In this document: positions 2,039-13,713 of the stretch, one piece after another
How positions within the stretch are numbered: position 1 is the first letter of the stretch
How the letters are laid out: each line of letters starts with the position of its first letter
Assembly (NCBI GenBank): GCA_017461045.1
Contig: JAFTZJ010000041.1
Coordinates: 1-34,822, forward strand
Reading direction: 5' to 3'
Origin: Lachnospiraceae bacterium
GTDB lineage: Bacteria > Bacillota > Clostridia > Lachnospirales > Lachnospiraceae
Length of the DNA: 34,822 bases
Notes under the pieces: generated by a model
Databases searched by the model: none
What the model was told of the DNA's origin: nothing
What the model saw: the letters and a program-made list of their open reading frames with translations, nothing else
Program-made: the position numbers and the translations under genes

Positions 2039-3098
2039 GATATCGATCAATACCATTAGCAATTCCGGTTGCTATCTTGTACTGATATTCCTCTGTTGCC
2101 ATCCGGGCATCCTCATCCGGATTGGTCATATATCCCATCTCTACAATAGTAACCGGAACCTGACACCAATTAATGCCGGACATCGAATCGGTTTCCCACA
2201 CATACTGCTGTTTCGCACCTGTGGCTGCCACAAATTCTTCCAATACACAGGTAGACAGTTCTTTGCTTTCTGGGTACAACGCACCATTGTATGGGTTCGA
2301 CGGTGTCTGGCAAATGGTCATAACTCCATTTACACTACTATCCTCTGAACCATTAGCATGAATCCGGATAAAGGCTGCTGCCCCTGCCTGATTCGCAATA
2401 GCGGCACGCTCCGAATTACTCATATCCACATCATGTGAGGTTCGTACCATAATAACGGTATAACCTCTCCGCTCCAATTCTGCCTGTAATTTCTCTGCCA
2501 CTTGAAGATTCAACTCATATTCTGCTAAGCCACTCACACAACCGGCAGTTCCACCGGTTACCTTTGCCTTGGTTTCAGAAGCCCCCGGACCTACCGGTTC
2601 CTGCTCGCTGTTGCCGTATCTCTGGTGTCCTGCATCAATTACAATTAAGCGTCCGTCTCCGGTAATTGCCGGTGCAGTTGTTGCCGGTGCTTCAGTAGTC
2701 GGAGGTTCTTCTCCAACTACACAAAGGTATTCGCTGGCAACATAGAACTTCTGCCCACCAATGGTAATGGTACTCCATTCTCCGTCATCATAGACACGGG
2801 TCACTTCCTGATTAACAGACAACTGTCCATGAATATCACTTTCTGTTGTAGGCAGCGTCCGAATATTCACTACCTCAATGGCATATACCTGCTCCGATGG
2901 AATTTCATATGCTTCTTCCGTATCCTCTTCTGTCTGATCTTCTGTCAATTCACTACTTGCATCTGTGGTTCCGTCACTTGTCTCCTGCCGGATACCATCC
3001 TCCTTAGATGTATCATTTCCCGGGTCTGCTGTTTTTCCACAGGCACATAAAATTGTAAATGCTAAGACCATGAATATGGCAATCACTCTCTTTTTCAT
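2028..3098 (-). CDS. N-acetylmuramoyl-L-alanine amidase lipoprotein (Amidase_3) with SH3-like domain
   Basis: This 356-residue lipoprotein has a lipobox LCAC (Cys20), a Thr/Glu/Asp-rich linker (about 28-68), a bacterial SH3-like domain (about 70-128; NIRTLP... and ...FYVASEYL) and a zinc-dependent Amidase_3 domain (about 150-355). The expected zinc and catalytic residues are visible: His158 in DAGH, Glu193 in LAEYELN, His247 in RIHANG and Glu320 in VEMGYMTN. It should cut the amide bond between the glycan and the stem peptide. The start has GGAGGAGAC upstream. The convergent lysozyme gene suggests a small wall-remodelling locus, but the two genes cannot share a transcript. Confidence 0.92.
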
Positions 3099-3137
3099 TT
3101 GTCTCCTCCGATTCTTGTATTCCTTCTTGATTTTAAA

Positions 3138-3146
3138 ATTATATCA
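3138..3146 (-). promoter_or_regulatory. Extended -10 promoter for the amidase gene
   Basis: On the minus strand the sequence reads TGATATAAT, a consensus TATAAT preceded by TG at the extended -10 position. It lies about 40 bases upstream of the amidase start. No good -35 is seen, which is normal for this promoter class. Confidence 0.5.
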
Positions 3147-3285
3147 TAGTCCACACCTAAATGCACGTATTACCACTAGTCATCCTCTTTTGAAAGTGTT
3201 AGAATAAAACATGCTTACTTATAATAATAGCATAGCAAGCATAAATGATTGATTTTTAGCCAATAACATGAATGAGGTGATTACC

Positions 3286-3816
3286 ATGAAATTAAAATTA
3301 GTAACTCTATTTTTAACCATATTTAGCATCTGCTTTTTAACCGGTTGCATGAATAGTTCCGAAACGAAACCACTTTACTATGACGAATTATCCATTGGAG
3401 ATACCGCTCCGGATTTCACTGCCAACTTGGCAGATGGCAGTACATTTACACTTTCTGAACATAGCGGAAGTGTTGTGTTAGTGAATTTCTGGGCTACCTG
3501 GTGCGGTCCTTGTGTAGGAGAAATGCCGGCCTTTGAATGGCTGGATGCAGATTATGGAGACGAGGTTGTCATACTGGCTGTTAACTGTATGGAGGATGAA
3601 AACACCGTAGACCAGTTTATCTCTTCTAATGGTTATACCTTCCCGATTGCCTATGATACCGCCGGTGAAATCAGCACGAAATATCCATCTACCGGCATTC
3701 CTTATACCGTAGTAATTGACGGTGATGGAATCATCCGGAATATTTATGTGGGAGCATATACCGCAGAGGCACAGTATCAGGAATACAAATCTGCTATCGA
3801 CGAAATACTTCCATAG
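3286..3816 (+). CDS. TlpA-like thiol-disulfide oxidoreductase lipoprotein
   Basis: The 176-residue exported thioredoxin-fold protein has an N-terminal signal ending in lipobox LTGC and then an AhpC-TSA/Redoxin domain with the active site WATWCGPC. A GIPYTVV segment carries the conserved cis-proline. I place the start at 3286 because GAGGTGA at 3274-3280 is correctly spaced for it; an ATG 18 bases earlier lies in front of that site. It should reduce protein thiols or peroxides outside the membrane. The next two genes encode a small CXXC membrane peptide and a membrane polyferredoxin, which plausibly feed it electrons. A TATAAT at 3230-3235 with a weak -35 may be its promoter. Confidence 0.9.
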   Translation: MKLKLVTLFLTIFSICFLTGCMNSSETKPLYYDELSIGDTAPDFTANLADGSTFTLSEHSGSVVLVNFWATWCGPCVGEMPAFEWLDADYGDEVVILAVNCMEDENTVDQFISSNGYTFPIAYDTAGEISTKYPSTGIPYTVVIDGDGIIRNIYVGAYTAEAQYQEYKSAIDEILP

Positions 3817-3887: not shown

Positions 3888-4031
3888 GTGACATTTATTC
3901 GAAAACATATGGGAAAAGGAATACTCATTATAGCCGTTGCTTTCCTCATTATCGGCATTGTGCAAGGAGGCTTTCATGACACCATAGCGAAAGCAATTCG
4001 CATCTGTCTGGAATGTATTGGTATCGGATAA
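3888..4031 (+). CDS. CD1871A-family CXXC-motif membrane microprotein, 47 residues
   Basis: This short gene uses a GTG start preceded by a strong AGGAGGT site at 3875-3880. The peptide has a basic N-terminus (RKHMGKG), one membrane helix (ILIIAVAFLIIGIVQGG) and a C-terminal ICLECIGIG with a CLEC redox motif. It resembles the CXXC microproteins annotated as the CD1871A family in Clostridia, which I recall as sitting between a thioredoxin-like protein and a 4Fe-4S membrane protein, exactly the arrangement here. I infer that it relays electrons or thiols between those partners. No biochemical role is established to my knowledge. It ends 20 bases before the next start. Confidence 0.8.
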   Translation: MTFIRKHMGKGILIIAVAFLIIGIVQGGFHDTIAKAIRICLECIGIG

Positions 4032-4051
4032 TAACGAAGGAATTATATAAA

Positions 4052-4858
4052 ATGAAACGAAAACTCATTCAAGTCATCTGTGCAATTCTATATAACTGCA
4101 ATCTAATTGGTTTTGCCAAAGGCAGTATCTATCAGGGACCGATTAAAGGTGCCTGCGTTCCGGGACTGAACTGCTATTCCTGTCCGGGAGCCATTGCTTC
4201 CTGCCCTCTAGGCAGCCTTCAATCTGCATTGGTTTCCAGCAAGTATAAATTTCCCTACTATATATTAGGGTTGCTGCTCCTATTCGGTGTACTGTTGGGA
4301 CGAGTAATTTGTGGCTTTTTATGTCCATTTGGTCTCATTCAGGAGTTGCTGTACAAAATCCCTACACCAAAATTGAAAAAGAATTGTTTTACACGAATTC
4401 TTTCTTATTTGAAATATGTAATTTTAGTTGTATTTGTAATCATGATTCCGATTGTTTTGTTAGAACCGGGATTTTGCAAGTACATTTGTCCGGCAGGCAC
4501 ATTAGAAGCCGGAGTCCCTTTGGTTATTATGAATGAACCACTACAAGCATTGACCGGAAACTTATTTATCTGGAAAGTAGCATTGCTAATTTTGTTCATA
4601 ATTGCCGCTGTATTTATCTTCCGAAGTTTTTGTCGGTTTATCTGTCCCCTTGGCGCCTTCTATTCCTTTTTCAACCGGATAGCCATGGTTCGTATCAAGG
4701 TTGACGAGGATAAATGCGACCACTGCAATGCCTGCATACATCATTGCAAAATGGACATCCAAAAAGTAGGCGACCACGAATGTATTCAGTGTGGGGAATG
4801 TGCAAAGCATTGCCATACCTGCGCGATTTCATTTCGAAAAAAGAATATTGAATCCTAG
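4052..4858 (+). CDS. Membrane-bound 4Fe-4S polyferredoxin (NapH/MauN-like)
   Basis: The 268-residue integral membrane protein has about four membrane helices and repeated membrane-proximal cysteine motifs of the NapH type: CYSCPGAIASCPLG (41-54), CGFLCPFG (87-94), CKYICPAG (142-149) and CRFICPLG (194-201). The C-terminus carries two classical 4Fe-4S ferredoxin motifs (Cys222/225/228/232 and Cys244/247/250/254). Such proteins pass electrons between cytoplasm and membrane. The start at 4052 has GAAGG about ten bases upstream; a reading from 4013 would overlap the microprotein. As third gene of the operon it probably supplies reducing power to the CXXC peptide and the TlpA-like lipoprotein. That job is inference. 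Confidence 0.87.
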   Translation: MKRKLIQVICAILYNCNLIGFAKGSIYQGPIKGACVPGLNCYSCPGAIASCPLGSLQSALVSSKYKFPYYILGLLLLFGVLLGRVICGFLCPFGLIQELLYKIPTPKLKKNCFTRILSYLKYVILVVFVIMIPIVLLEPGFCKYICPAGTLEAGVPLVIMNEPLQALTGNLFIWKVALLILFIIAAVFIFRSFCRFICPLGAFYSFFNRIAMVRIKVDEDKCDHCNACIHHCKMDIQKVGDHECIQCGECAKHCHTCAISFRKKNIES

Positions 4859-11578: not shown

Positions 11579-11607
11579 TTGACACACTGTTTTATCTATG
11601 CCAAAAT
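11579..11607 (+). promoter_or_regulatory. Promoter of the EF-Tu-like lipoprotein unit
   Basis: A consensus TTGACA, a 17-base spacer and CAAAAT. The -10 is four of six. Transcription would begin about 50 bases before the ATG at 11663. Confidence 0.5.
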
Positions 11608-11662: not shown

Positions 11663-12433
11663 ATGAAGCAGAAGTTATTATGTTTATTGCTGGCAACCAG
11701 TACGCTGTGTCTGCTTACCGCTTGTGGTGACAAGAAGCAGCCGGATACAACCGAAGCTAATCCTGGGGAGGCAATTGTCGGAGAAGAAATCCGAACCAAC
11801 AATGCGGATATTACAGAGGTTAATAATGAATTACTTGCTGACGCACAGGCATATATTTTGATGGACGATGCATTTACTATCAGCGGAAAAGGAACCATAA
11901 TTACCGGTTTCTGTTACAATCAACCATTCCCGGTAGATACGGAAGTAGATATTTTCCATCCAAACCAGCGTGTAGAGACCACCTTAACCTATGTGGACGA
12001 TAACGGCGAGGAATTGGACGAATTACCACTTGGCGGTAGCTGTGGTTTTATGTTAGACGGCATTGGCAAAGATGGCGTAGGAAAATATGATTTGGTTGTA
12101 TTAAAGGGAGAAGGTGTTCTGACCAATAAGATTACCGGTTCCTTTGTTATTTCTACCTTTGCTGCTAAGGAAGACATTCCTTCATTAGTCGGTTCCGAAG
12201 TAACAATGGGTTATTTCTCTACTTTCGCTAACGTTACTTATGACGGCGTAATCGATACCGTAGTTGGTGCAAACGGAGAAGATATTAATGATTTGAACCC
12301 GGGCGATGTTGCAATCGTAACCATTACATTAAATGAGGAAATTCCAATGGTGCGGGGCACAGAGATATTCTATCAGACAGCAAATGGAATCGCTGATTCT
12401 GCTGCTTGTATTGCATCACCAGTAGAAGAGTAA
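11663..12433 (+). CDS. Exported lipoprotein made of EF-Tu domain II and III-like barrels, no GTPase domain
   Basis: 256 residues. A signal peptide ends in lipobox LLTAC (Cys21), followed by an acidic linker. Residues about 63-149 match EF-Tu domain II: DDAFTISGKGTIITG corresponds to EDVFSISGRGTVVTG of E. coli EF-Tu, and GFMLDGIGKDGVGK to GVLLRGIKREEIER. Residues about 153-252 match domain III: LNPGDVAIVTITLNEEI corresponds to VMPGDNIKMVVTLIHPI, and the last strands align too. No G1-G5 GTPase motif exists, and none would fit between the linker and domain II. So this is a surface lipoprotein with a translation-factor barrel pair, not an elongation factor. Function unknown. AGGAGGATT supports the start at 11663. 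It is followed by a zinc-ribbon membrane protein gene, probably in one unit. Confidence 0.85.
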   Translation: MKQKLLCLLLATSTLCLLTACGDKKQPDTTEANPGEAIVGEEIRTNNADITEVNNELLADAQAYILMDDAFTISGKGTIITGFCYNQPFPVDTEVDIFHPNQRVETTLTYVDDNGEELDELPLGGSCGFMLDGIGKDGVGKYDLVVLKGEGVLTNKITGSFVISTFAAKEDIPSLVGSEVTMGYFSTFANVTYDGVIDTVVGANGEDINDLNPGDVAIVTITLNEEIPMVRGTEIFYQTANGIADSAACIASPVEE

Positions 12434-12477: not shown

Positions 12478-13713
12478 ATGATACTATATTGTGCAAATTG
12501 CGGTGATGCGTTACTTTTTAATCCATCACTTGGAAAAATGGAATGCCTAAGCTGTGGGGCCCTCTTTGACGCCAACGAAGCATCCGCAGAATATACAGAA
12601 AATGATACTGCCACAAATCCGACAACGGAACGCTTATGCAAACCGGATGTATTATCGAAAGAAGCTACAGACAAACTTGTTACACCAAATACAGAGGGTG
12701 AAACAATGGAATGTAATATTTACTCTTGTACTGCCTGTGGTGCGGAACTGATGATAAATGGTGTGGAGTCTTCCACTTTTTGTGCCTACTGCGGACAACC
12801 AACCATCGTATTCAATCGGGTATCCTCAGAAGCAAAACCCAAATACATCATTCCATTTTCTATTACAAAGGAACAAGCAGTAGCAGCCATTCGCAACCGT
12901 TTTAAAAAGGGCCTTGTGATACCTAACGAAATCAAGCACTTTGACATTGAACGGGTTCGGGGAATCTACATACCTTTCTGGTTATATGACATCCACTATC
13001 ACGATGCACAATATCTAAGAGGAACGGTTGGTAGTGGCAAAAGCAAGCGTACAAAATACTTCTTCCGGGAAGCCGAATGTAATTTCAAGCGTTTAACATT
13101 GGACTCTTCTAAACAGCTAAGCGATGAAAGTTCTCAGCGTTTGGAACCATACGATACCTTTGCGGTACAGCCTTTTGATATCGGATATTTATCCGGATTC
13201 TATGCGGACCGCTACGACATGTCAAAAAAGAACACCGAAAGTCTGGCATTATCCCGGGCAAAGCTGCTATTTGATAACCAAGTAAAAAGCACAGTACGGG
13301 CAAGCAATGTTCAAATTATGAAATGCAATCCGAAGCGTACAATTAAGAACGTGGATTATGCATTATTCCCTGCCTGGTTTTTGACTTTTCGCTATAAAGA
13401 CCAACCACATACTATCTTAGTAAACGGGCAAACCGGCAAGGTGGTAGGTGCGGTTCCGTTCCACAAAGGCAAGGTAACCGGAATCTATTTAGCAATCAGT
13501 GCAGGACTTTCTTTTATATCCTCTCTATTTGCTATCTCTTACCTTAGCGGAGATCCGGAAGAGCCGGGCAAAATGATTGCATTGATGATTATGTTATCGA
13601 TATTCTGCTTTATAACAGGCAAAGCAATCTTCGGAAAAATCAAGAAAAATATCGGATTAACCACTGCAAAGGATATGAATCGTTTTGTGAAGAATAGACA
13701 GGAGGGAATGTAA
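12478..13713 (+). CDS. Zinc-ribbon membrane protein with four CxxC knuckles
   Basis: 411 residues. Four CxxC pairs make two zinc ribbons: CANC (5-8) with CLSC (23-26), and CTAC (84-87) with CAYC (102-105), joined by a Thr/Glu-rich linker. A conserved-looking central domain follows (about 115-330; KPKYIIPFSITKEQA, IYIPFWLYDIHY, NVDYALFPAWFLTF, VNGQTGKVVG). Two membrane helices lie near the C-terminus (about 340-363 and 370-392). Proteins of this layout are usually annotated as TFIIB-type zinc-ribbon proteins of unknown role. AGGGGA supports the start. It lies 44 bases after the EF-Tu-like lipoprotein gene and is followed at once by a small membrane protein. Confidence 0.8.
   Translation: MILYCANCGDALLFNPSLGKMECLSCGALFDANEASAEYTENDTATNPTTERLCKPDVLSKEATDKLVTPNTEGETMECNIYSCTACGAELMINGVESSTFCAYCGQPTIVFNRVSSEAKPKYIIPFSITKEQAVAAIRNRFKKGLVIPNEIKHFDIERVRGIYIPFWLYDIHYHDAQYLRGTVGSGKSKRTKYFFREAECNFKRLTLDSSKQLSDESSQRLEPYDTFAVQPFDIGYLSGFYADRYDMSKKNTESLALSRAKLLFDNQVKSTVRASNVQIMKCNPKRTIKNVDYALFPAWFLTFRYKDQPHTILVNGQTGKVVGAVPFHKGKVTGIYLAISAGLSFISSLFAISYLSGDPEEPGKMIALMIMLSIFCFITGKAIFGKIKKNIGLTTAKDMNRFVKNRQEGM

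Follow-up and report, generated by a model that had tools for sequence, protein, structure and literature searches.

The predicted lipoprotein and its neighbour

The window, that is the whole stretch of 34,822 nucleotides from a Lachnospiraceae bacterium that was analysed, carries a gene for a predicted lipoprotein that contains domain II (D2) of the translation factor EF-Tu, probably followed by domain III (D3), and has no GTPase (G) domain (Table 1). The reading frame begins with an ATG at 11663 preceded by the ribosome site GAGGAGG, and its stop ends at 12433, which bears out the frame and start given in the original prediction. The promoter-like site upstream of the gene is weak, since there are 10 such sites in the window and 8.0 would be expected from shuffles.

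Table 1. Positions of the features in the window and of SLH-anchored EF-Tu proteins at other loci
Feature	Position	Strand	Basis
Promoter-like TTGACA-17-CAAAAT, TG ahead of second hexamer	11579..11607	+	consensus scan, 10/12 matches
Gene for the predicted 256-residue lipoprotein; EF-Tu D2, probable D3, G domain absent	11663..12433	+	profile and PDB searches
Predicted type II signal peptide, residues 1-20, lipobox cysteine C21 (11723-11725)	11663..11725	+	lipobox patterns
Acidic linker, residues 22-58	11726..11836	+	read from sequence
EF-Tu domain II-like region, residues ~59-150, motif DDAFTISGKGTIITG	11837..12112	+	shuffles, NCBIfam, PDB
Probable EF-Tu domain III-like region, residues ~151-256	12113..12430	+	weak by itself
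YdjG-like zinc-ribbon gene, 44 bases downstream of lipoprotein gene	12478..13713	+	homology; helices and ribbons by eye
SLH-anchored EF-Tu D2/D3 protein(s)	L163:6853-8499	-	
SLH-anchored EF-Tu D2/D3 protein(s)	L173:7371-10897	-	
SLH-anchored EF-Tu D2/D3 protein(s)	L177:2537-6715	+	
SLH-anchored EF-Tu D2/D3 protein(s)	L178:1150-2586	+	

The N-terminus has the make-up of a lipoprotein signal, with a basic n-region and a hydrophobic stretch ahead of a cysteine. The G+LPP-type and PS00013-type lipobox patterns, in what we take to be their accepted form, both match at C21, directly behind the residues LTA; when residues 1-35 were shuffled, 7 of 10000 shuffles fitted the former. The lipoprotein signal that had been proposed is thus upheld as a prediction. 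The mature protein has 41 acidic and 11 basic residues and no strong hydrophobic segment, the best 19-residue hydrophobicity mean being 0.95. Neither the whole protein nor either half alone has a Pfam match at E<=10, and no SLH domain was found. Elsewhere in the window there is a second lipobox protein (3268-3816, + strand), which by eye is thioredoxin-like (WATWCGPC), and the gene after it (4013-4858) encodes what appears by eye to be a membrane protein with ferredoxin-type cysteine motifs.

No terminator-like site was seen between the lipoprotein gene and the zinc-ribbon gene behind it, and the two possibly share a transcript. Zinc ribbons and C-terminal membrane helices were read by eye in the product of the second gene, whose Pfam zinc-ribbon matches are all below cut-off; at 31% identity (1e-48) it is homologous to the zinc-ribbon protein encoded at the Acetivibrio locus described below. 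The name YdjG-like was set by this homologue and by the neighbours of the family rather than against the Bacillus subtilis YdjG sequence, and it is supported by the TPM and Band-7 genes that lie near the zinc-ribbon genes of relatives (15 and 10 of 39 loci, respectively). At the window the zinc ribbon was found alone, and not the TPM and Band-7 set of a ydjG-ydjH-ydjI-type operon; nor were TPM or Band-7 genes seen in the stretches fetched for the four loci whose zinc ribbons are nearest to that of the window (L053-L056). None of the 39 other zinc-ribbon loci of relatives has a D2 module.

EF-Tu domain II and probable domain III in the protein

Sequence comparison makes the assignment of domain II secure. 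Models of D2, D3 and D2D3 were built from 23 EF-Tu D2D3 sequences of relatives. The D2 model gives 30.3 bits with the window protein, a score reached by none of 200 shuffles (best 7.1), and the D2D3 model gives 32.0 bits (best shuffle 5.9), while hhalign with the EF-Tu models assigns probabilities of 92.4% to the whole, 95.3% to D2 and 3.2% to D3. Four NCBIfam EF-Tu models match with E-values of 7e-9 to 7e-8 (31.6-34.9 bits), of which three cover residues 60-234 and the fourth 60-156; that these scores lie far below the full-length cut-offs of 449-522 is expected, because there is no G domain. By the NCBIfam models bacterial EF-Tu (7e-9) is nearer to the protein than EF-1alpha (0.0033) and SelB (0.019) are; its best PDB match is EF-Tu (7.7e-8), and its identity to EF-Tu is 21-26%. 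Only the signal peptide and linker precede D2, and the G domain with its GHVDHGK P-loop is not present, as had been claimed. Compared with EF-Tu (TIGR00485 / NF000766), the protein has in common the D2 motif D-x-F-x-I-x-G-[RK]-G-T-[VI]-x-T-G, the probable D3 and the C-terminus, but differs in its lipobox, its missing G domain, its charge and its altered pocket.

Domain III is likely to be present, although it is less clear than domain II and its match by sequence alone comes near to chance. The EF-Tu D3 model alone gives 5.5 bits, which was reached by 2 of 200 shuffles (best 9.0), and in a second round 4 of 300 shuffles reached the score with the EF-Tu model, 7 of 300 with a combined one, and 234 of 300 when the model was built from three exported SLH proteins. 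Second-round hhalign probabilities for this half were 0.3% and 0.1%, and EF-Tu was not among the matches when the C-terminal half alone was searched against PDB. The D2D3 alignment continues to residue 234, a stretch of the form PGD...T.tL...I.M..G is in register with EF-Tu D3, and the end of the protein coincides with the EF-Tu C-terminus. The D3 half also ranks first of 71 scored segments, the other 70 coming from further lipobox ORFs (84 segments had been taken from these, and 14 were left without a score). The original prediction held that nearly every strand of domains II and III can be matched, and described a lipoprotein of both domains without a GTPase domain; this stands for the predicted lipoprotein, for D2 and for the missing G domain, whereas the match to D3 is weaker than claimed and that domain is probable only.

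EF-Tu barrels are binding surfaces for the aminoacyl end and stem of tRNA, for EF-Ts and for the G domain. Ten residues of D2 are taken by us to form the aminoacyl-adenosine pocket (Thermus numbering), and three of these (D227, F229 and I231) are identical in the window protein, five are conservatively changed, R274 is replaced by G and N285 by S, so that the pocket is not that of EF-Tu. Among 11 EF-Tu rows R274 is altered in two and N285 is kept in all. The net charge of residues 58-256 is -24, as against -7 to 0 in the 23 EF-Tu D2D3 sequences. The altered pocket and strongly acidic surface make tRNA binding by the window protein unlikely, and the missing G domain together with the predicted export excludes a canonical role in translation.

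Relatives and other EF-Tu barrel proteins

No ortholog was found in seven congeners, where the matches in five genomes are frames of EF-Tu length and one further match (L021) covers the signal peptide alone. At E<=1e-8 only the window's own copy was recovered from 397 family genomes and from 341 class genomes. Thirteen further matches in 295 order genomes at 1e-6, with frames of 398-431 amino acids, were rejected as orthologs, eight being EF-Tu by P-loop and D2 motif and five (L025, L026, L027, L030 and L031) by length only; the family, order and class samples overlap one another. The matches listed for the family search at E<=0.01 span 308 of the 397 genomes, and weaker relatives could lie beyond them. 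The short frames read at this threshold were L003 (G033) and L059 (G259), of which L059 was rejected as a cut EF-Tu; the reading left aside short frames at contig ends (G412, G109, G186) and near contig starts (such as G275, G212, G263 and G385). Frames of 636-649 amino acids with D2 and a GHVDHGK start were set aside as SelB, which we presume them to be. Scans of genome contigs and viral contigs with exact short peptides of the window protein, which reach close relatives only, gave no relatives, and none of the matching phage (four, including a Moraxella phage region) or plasmid (eight) records, some of them annotated as EF-Tu, covers more than 80% of the query. No EF-Tu of the window genome itself, which is 67.5% complete, matched at E<=1. 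In the sister genomes G001 and G006 the counterpart of the zinc-ribbon gene (64% identical) adjoins what is presumably an AAA ATPase gene, and the response regulator adjoins a gene that we take to be PilT-like; since these flanking genes occur there in other contexts and without the lipoprotein, the lipoprotein gene lies at a synteny break.

Free-standing EF-Tu domain II occurs in other small proteins of about 110-130 amino acids with no visible signal peptide (L003:1495-1869 on the - strand, L081-L086, L116/L125 and L117/L124). The L003 protein matches PF03144 with 33.6 bits and has close relatives in 7 of 299 family genomes. The L003 family, L116 and L117 are like the window protein in having D2 on its own, and differ from it in that neither an export signal nor D3 was seen. 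Other unusual forms of EF-Tu were also met. One EF-Tu gene (G228, L100:3481-4953, - strand) has a tandem second copy of domain II, which is either a real duplication or an assembly error; on a short viral contig (L109:2473-3543), probably a chimeric assembly, an N-terminus that by eye is capsid-like continues in frame into the C-terminal half of EF-Tu; and a viral-classed contig of 92 kb (L113, IMGVR_UViG_3300028840_008180) carries a complete, divergent EF-Tu in frame 2347-3561.

Genome contigs were scanned with a degenerate DNA pattern encoding D-x-F-x-[IV]-x-G-K-G-T-[ILVF]-x-T-G, and three loci matched. Two encode small D2-only proteins with no signal peptide, which are more distant relatives of L003, one in an Erysipelotrichaceae MAG and the other in an Oscillospiraceae MAG. 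The third, in Acetivibrio sp. MSJd-27 (Clostridia), encodes a protein of 542 residues in which SLH (8e-14), D2 (3.9e-12) and D3 (1.1e-7) are all above the Pfam cut-offs; it has a signal-peptide-like start by eye, no G domain, and an Ig-like end of 23.6 bits, below the cut-off of 30. This protein also has a weak D2 match (0.0014, 18.6 bits, cut-off 100) to Pbp11 (NF041207), which is tRNA-binding by its NCBIfam name and which we take to be archaeal and intracellular; a literature search gave no paper naming Pbp11 among the matches listed.

SLH proteins with EF-Tu D2 are found in at least 6 of 109 genomes around Acetivibrio sp. MSJd-27 (G996, itself counted), a lower bound because nine frames of 629-650 amino acids and a few of 307-467 lie outside the reading. 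Two of the genomes, G996 and G1082, are not independent, the D2D3 of their SLH proteins being 99% identical. G1015 has two tandem SLH proteins with D2D3, G1048 has two with D2 and G999 one with D2, while G1002 shows one D2 end at a contig start, with no N-terminus visible. SLH is above cut-off in all seven EF-Tu-module proteins with visible N-termini. The modules correspond to GTP_EFTU_D2 (PF03144), whose cut-off is reached by six of seven (in the G999 protein the score is 20.5 bits against 30.3), and GTP_EFTU_D3 (PF03143), whose cut-off is reached by three of the four proteins with D3 (24.6 against 27 in the second G1015 protein).

These proteins have in common with the window protein a predicted export signal (signal peptides by eye in the SLH proteins), an EF-Tu D2 with or without D3, no visible G domain and, in three of the six genomes, a YdjG-like gene nearby. 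They differ from it in having an SLH wall anchor rather than a lipobox, in their Ig-like parts and in a sequence closer to EF-Tu. Although predicted to be extracellular, L163, L173a and L173b retain 8, 9 and 9 of the ten pocket residues, respectively; in the D2-only SLH proteins these residues are mostly altered. The D2D3 net charge is -25 in L173a, -21 in L173b and -5 in L163, which is not unusually acidic. The window protein scores 32 bits with the EF-Tu model (23 sequences) and 18 bits with the SLH model (3 sequences), and a tree of D2 places it on a long branch of unresolved position; the exported groups may therefore have arisen separately. It had been suggested that a dedicated exported version of EF-Tu would be a new class. 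The finding of SLH-anchored EF-Tu D2/D3 proteins elsewhere gives this idea independent support, since dedicated forms with predicted export signals also exist outside the window; such a class may have more than one origin.

In G996, G1082 and G999 the SLH-EF-Tu gene has both a TPM gene and a zinc-ribbon gene of YdjG-like kind in its neighbourhood, and Band-7 genes are close to it in G996, G1082 and G1002. At the Acetivibrio locus, as in the window, the zinc-ribbon gene is the next one downstream. A DUF4428 gene is near it in five of the six genomes, standing alone in G1048, and the G1015 contig stops just past its SLH-EF-Tu pair. Judged from gene order, and noticed after the fact, the link with envelope stress is good where the SLH proteins are concerned and no more than suggestive at the window gene.

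Possible function of the predicted exported barrels

YdjI and PspA of B. subtilis are described as being brought to the membrane by YdjG and YdjH, themselves membrane proteins (PMC8581546). A survey of Psp systems gives zinc ribbon, TPM and band-7 proteins as a PspA partner set, and 'EF-Tu' does not occur in its main text (PMC11237479). We suggest, with a probability of about 0.55, that the window protein is an EF-Tu-derived barrel lipoprotein that serves envelope maintenance as a module binding protein or wall outside the cytoplasm. What this builds on, namely the lipobox, domain II, the absence of a G domain and the gene order, can be read from the DNA itself. The lipoprotein would be exported and lipidated at C21, and the short acidic tether would hold it at the outer face of the cytoplasmic membrane. 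Its folded part would be the D2 barrel, very likely with a degenerate D3, freed from the GTPase domain. Because the tRNA contacts are altered and the surface is strongly acidic, the barrel would most likely be a module that binds protein or wall polymer outside the membrane. The YdjG-like neighbour of the window gene, together with the Psp-type genes found beside those for the SLH proteins, suggests a partnership with envelope-stress proteins of the YdjG/YdjH/YdjI kind; a barrel outside the membrane that bound some envelope component while contacting YdjG/H-like membrane proteins would fit.

It is possible, though less probable, that D2 alone derives from EF-Tu and that the C-terminal 105 or so residues are unrelated, in which case the lipoprotein would have a single barrel, as do the SLH proteins with D2 only. 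The weak shuffle statistics for D3, the lack of an EF-Tu match for the C-terminal half in PDB or Pfam and the existence of several exported proteins with D2 only are in keeping with this, but the alignment in register, the shared C-terminus and the first rank among the scored segments favour two barrels. A decaying, functionless piece of EF-Tu behind a signal peptide is improbable; such an origin might explain why the gene is an orphan at a synteny break, but a young fragment would have stayed EF-Tu-like, whereas 256 codons remain open at this low identity, the start signals are good, and the GC and GC3 contents (0.427 and 0.379) resemble those of nine other window genes.

As regards ligands, extracellular EF-Tu is treated in a review as a moonlighting protein that adheres to host extracellular matrix and has no secretion motif (PMC6822514; see also PMC5593925 for adhesion). 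The window protein likewise would put EF-Tu barrels outside the cell, but does so as a separate gene with its own export signal rather than as the whole translation factor. A dedicated adhesin whose barrels bind host matrix or mucin in the same way is nevertheless unlikely, as 236 mature residues would be short for a membrane lipoprotein to cross the wall, and nothing specific points to host adhesion; the neighbours of the SLH proteins, and more weakly that of the window gene, point to envelope stress instead. A role outside the cytoplasm in scavenging or sensing aminoacyl ends or nucleic acid, by means of what is kept of the pocket, is the least probable of these alternatives. It would agree with the three identical residues in the window protein and with the nearly complete pockets of L163, L173a and L173b, but not with the loss of R274 and of the invariant N285 or with the charge of the window barrels.

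Beyond the binding module in envelope maintenance that we favour for the window protein, it is tentatively proposed that Clostridia moved the EF-Tu barrel pair outside, perhaps more than once, as a lipoprotein here and with SLH in the Acetivibrio MSJd-27 group, and that in both it could act from outside the cytoplasm as the binding arm of an envelope-stress apparatus of Psp/Ydj type with zinc-ribbon, TPM and Band-7 inner parts. Exported pieces of EF-Tu appear to be a kind of surface protein that has been overlooked. No paper on them appeared among the matches listed in a literature search of titles and abstract openings that included few subscription papers. If this is correct, genes for EF-Tu barrels alone behind export signals would represent a dedicated extracellular version of these domains, and would provide clean material for asking about barrel ligands apart from translation. 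They would also supply an outer part to an envelope-stress operon of Psp type in which the way that YdjG/H sense their stimulus is called unclear (PMC8581546).
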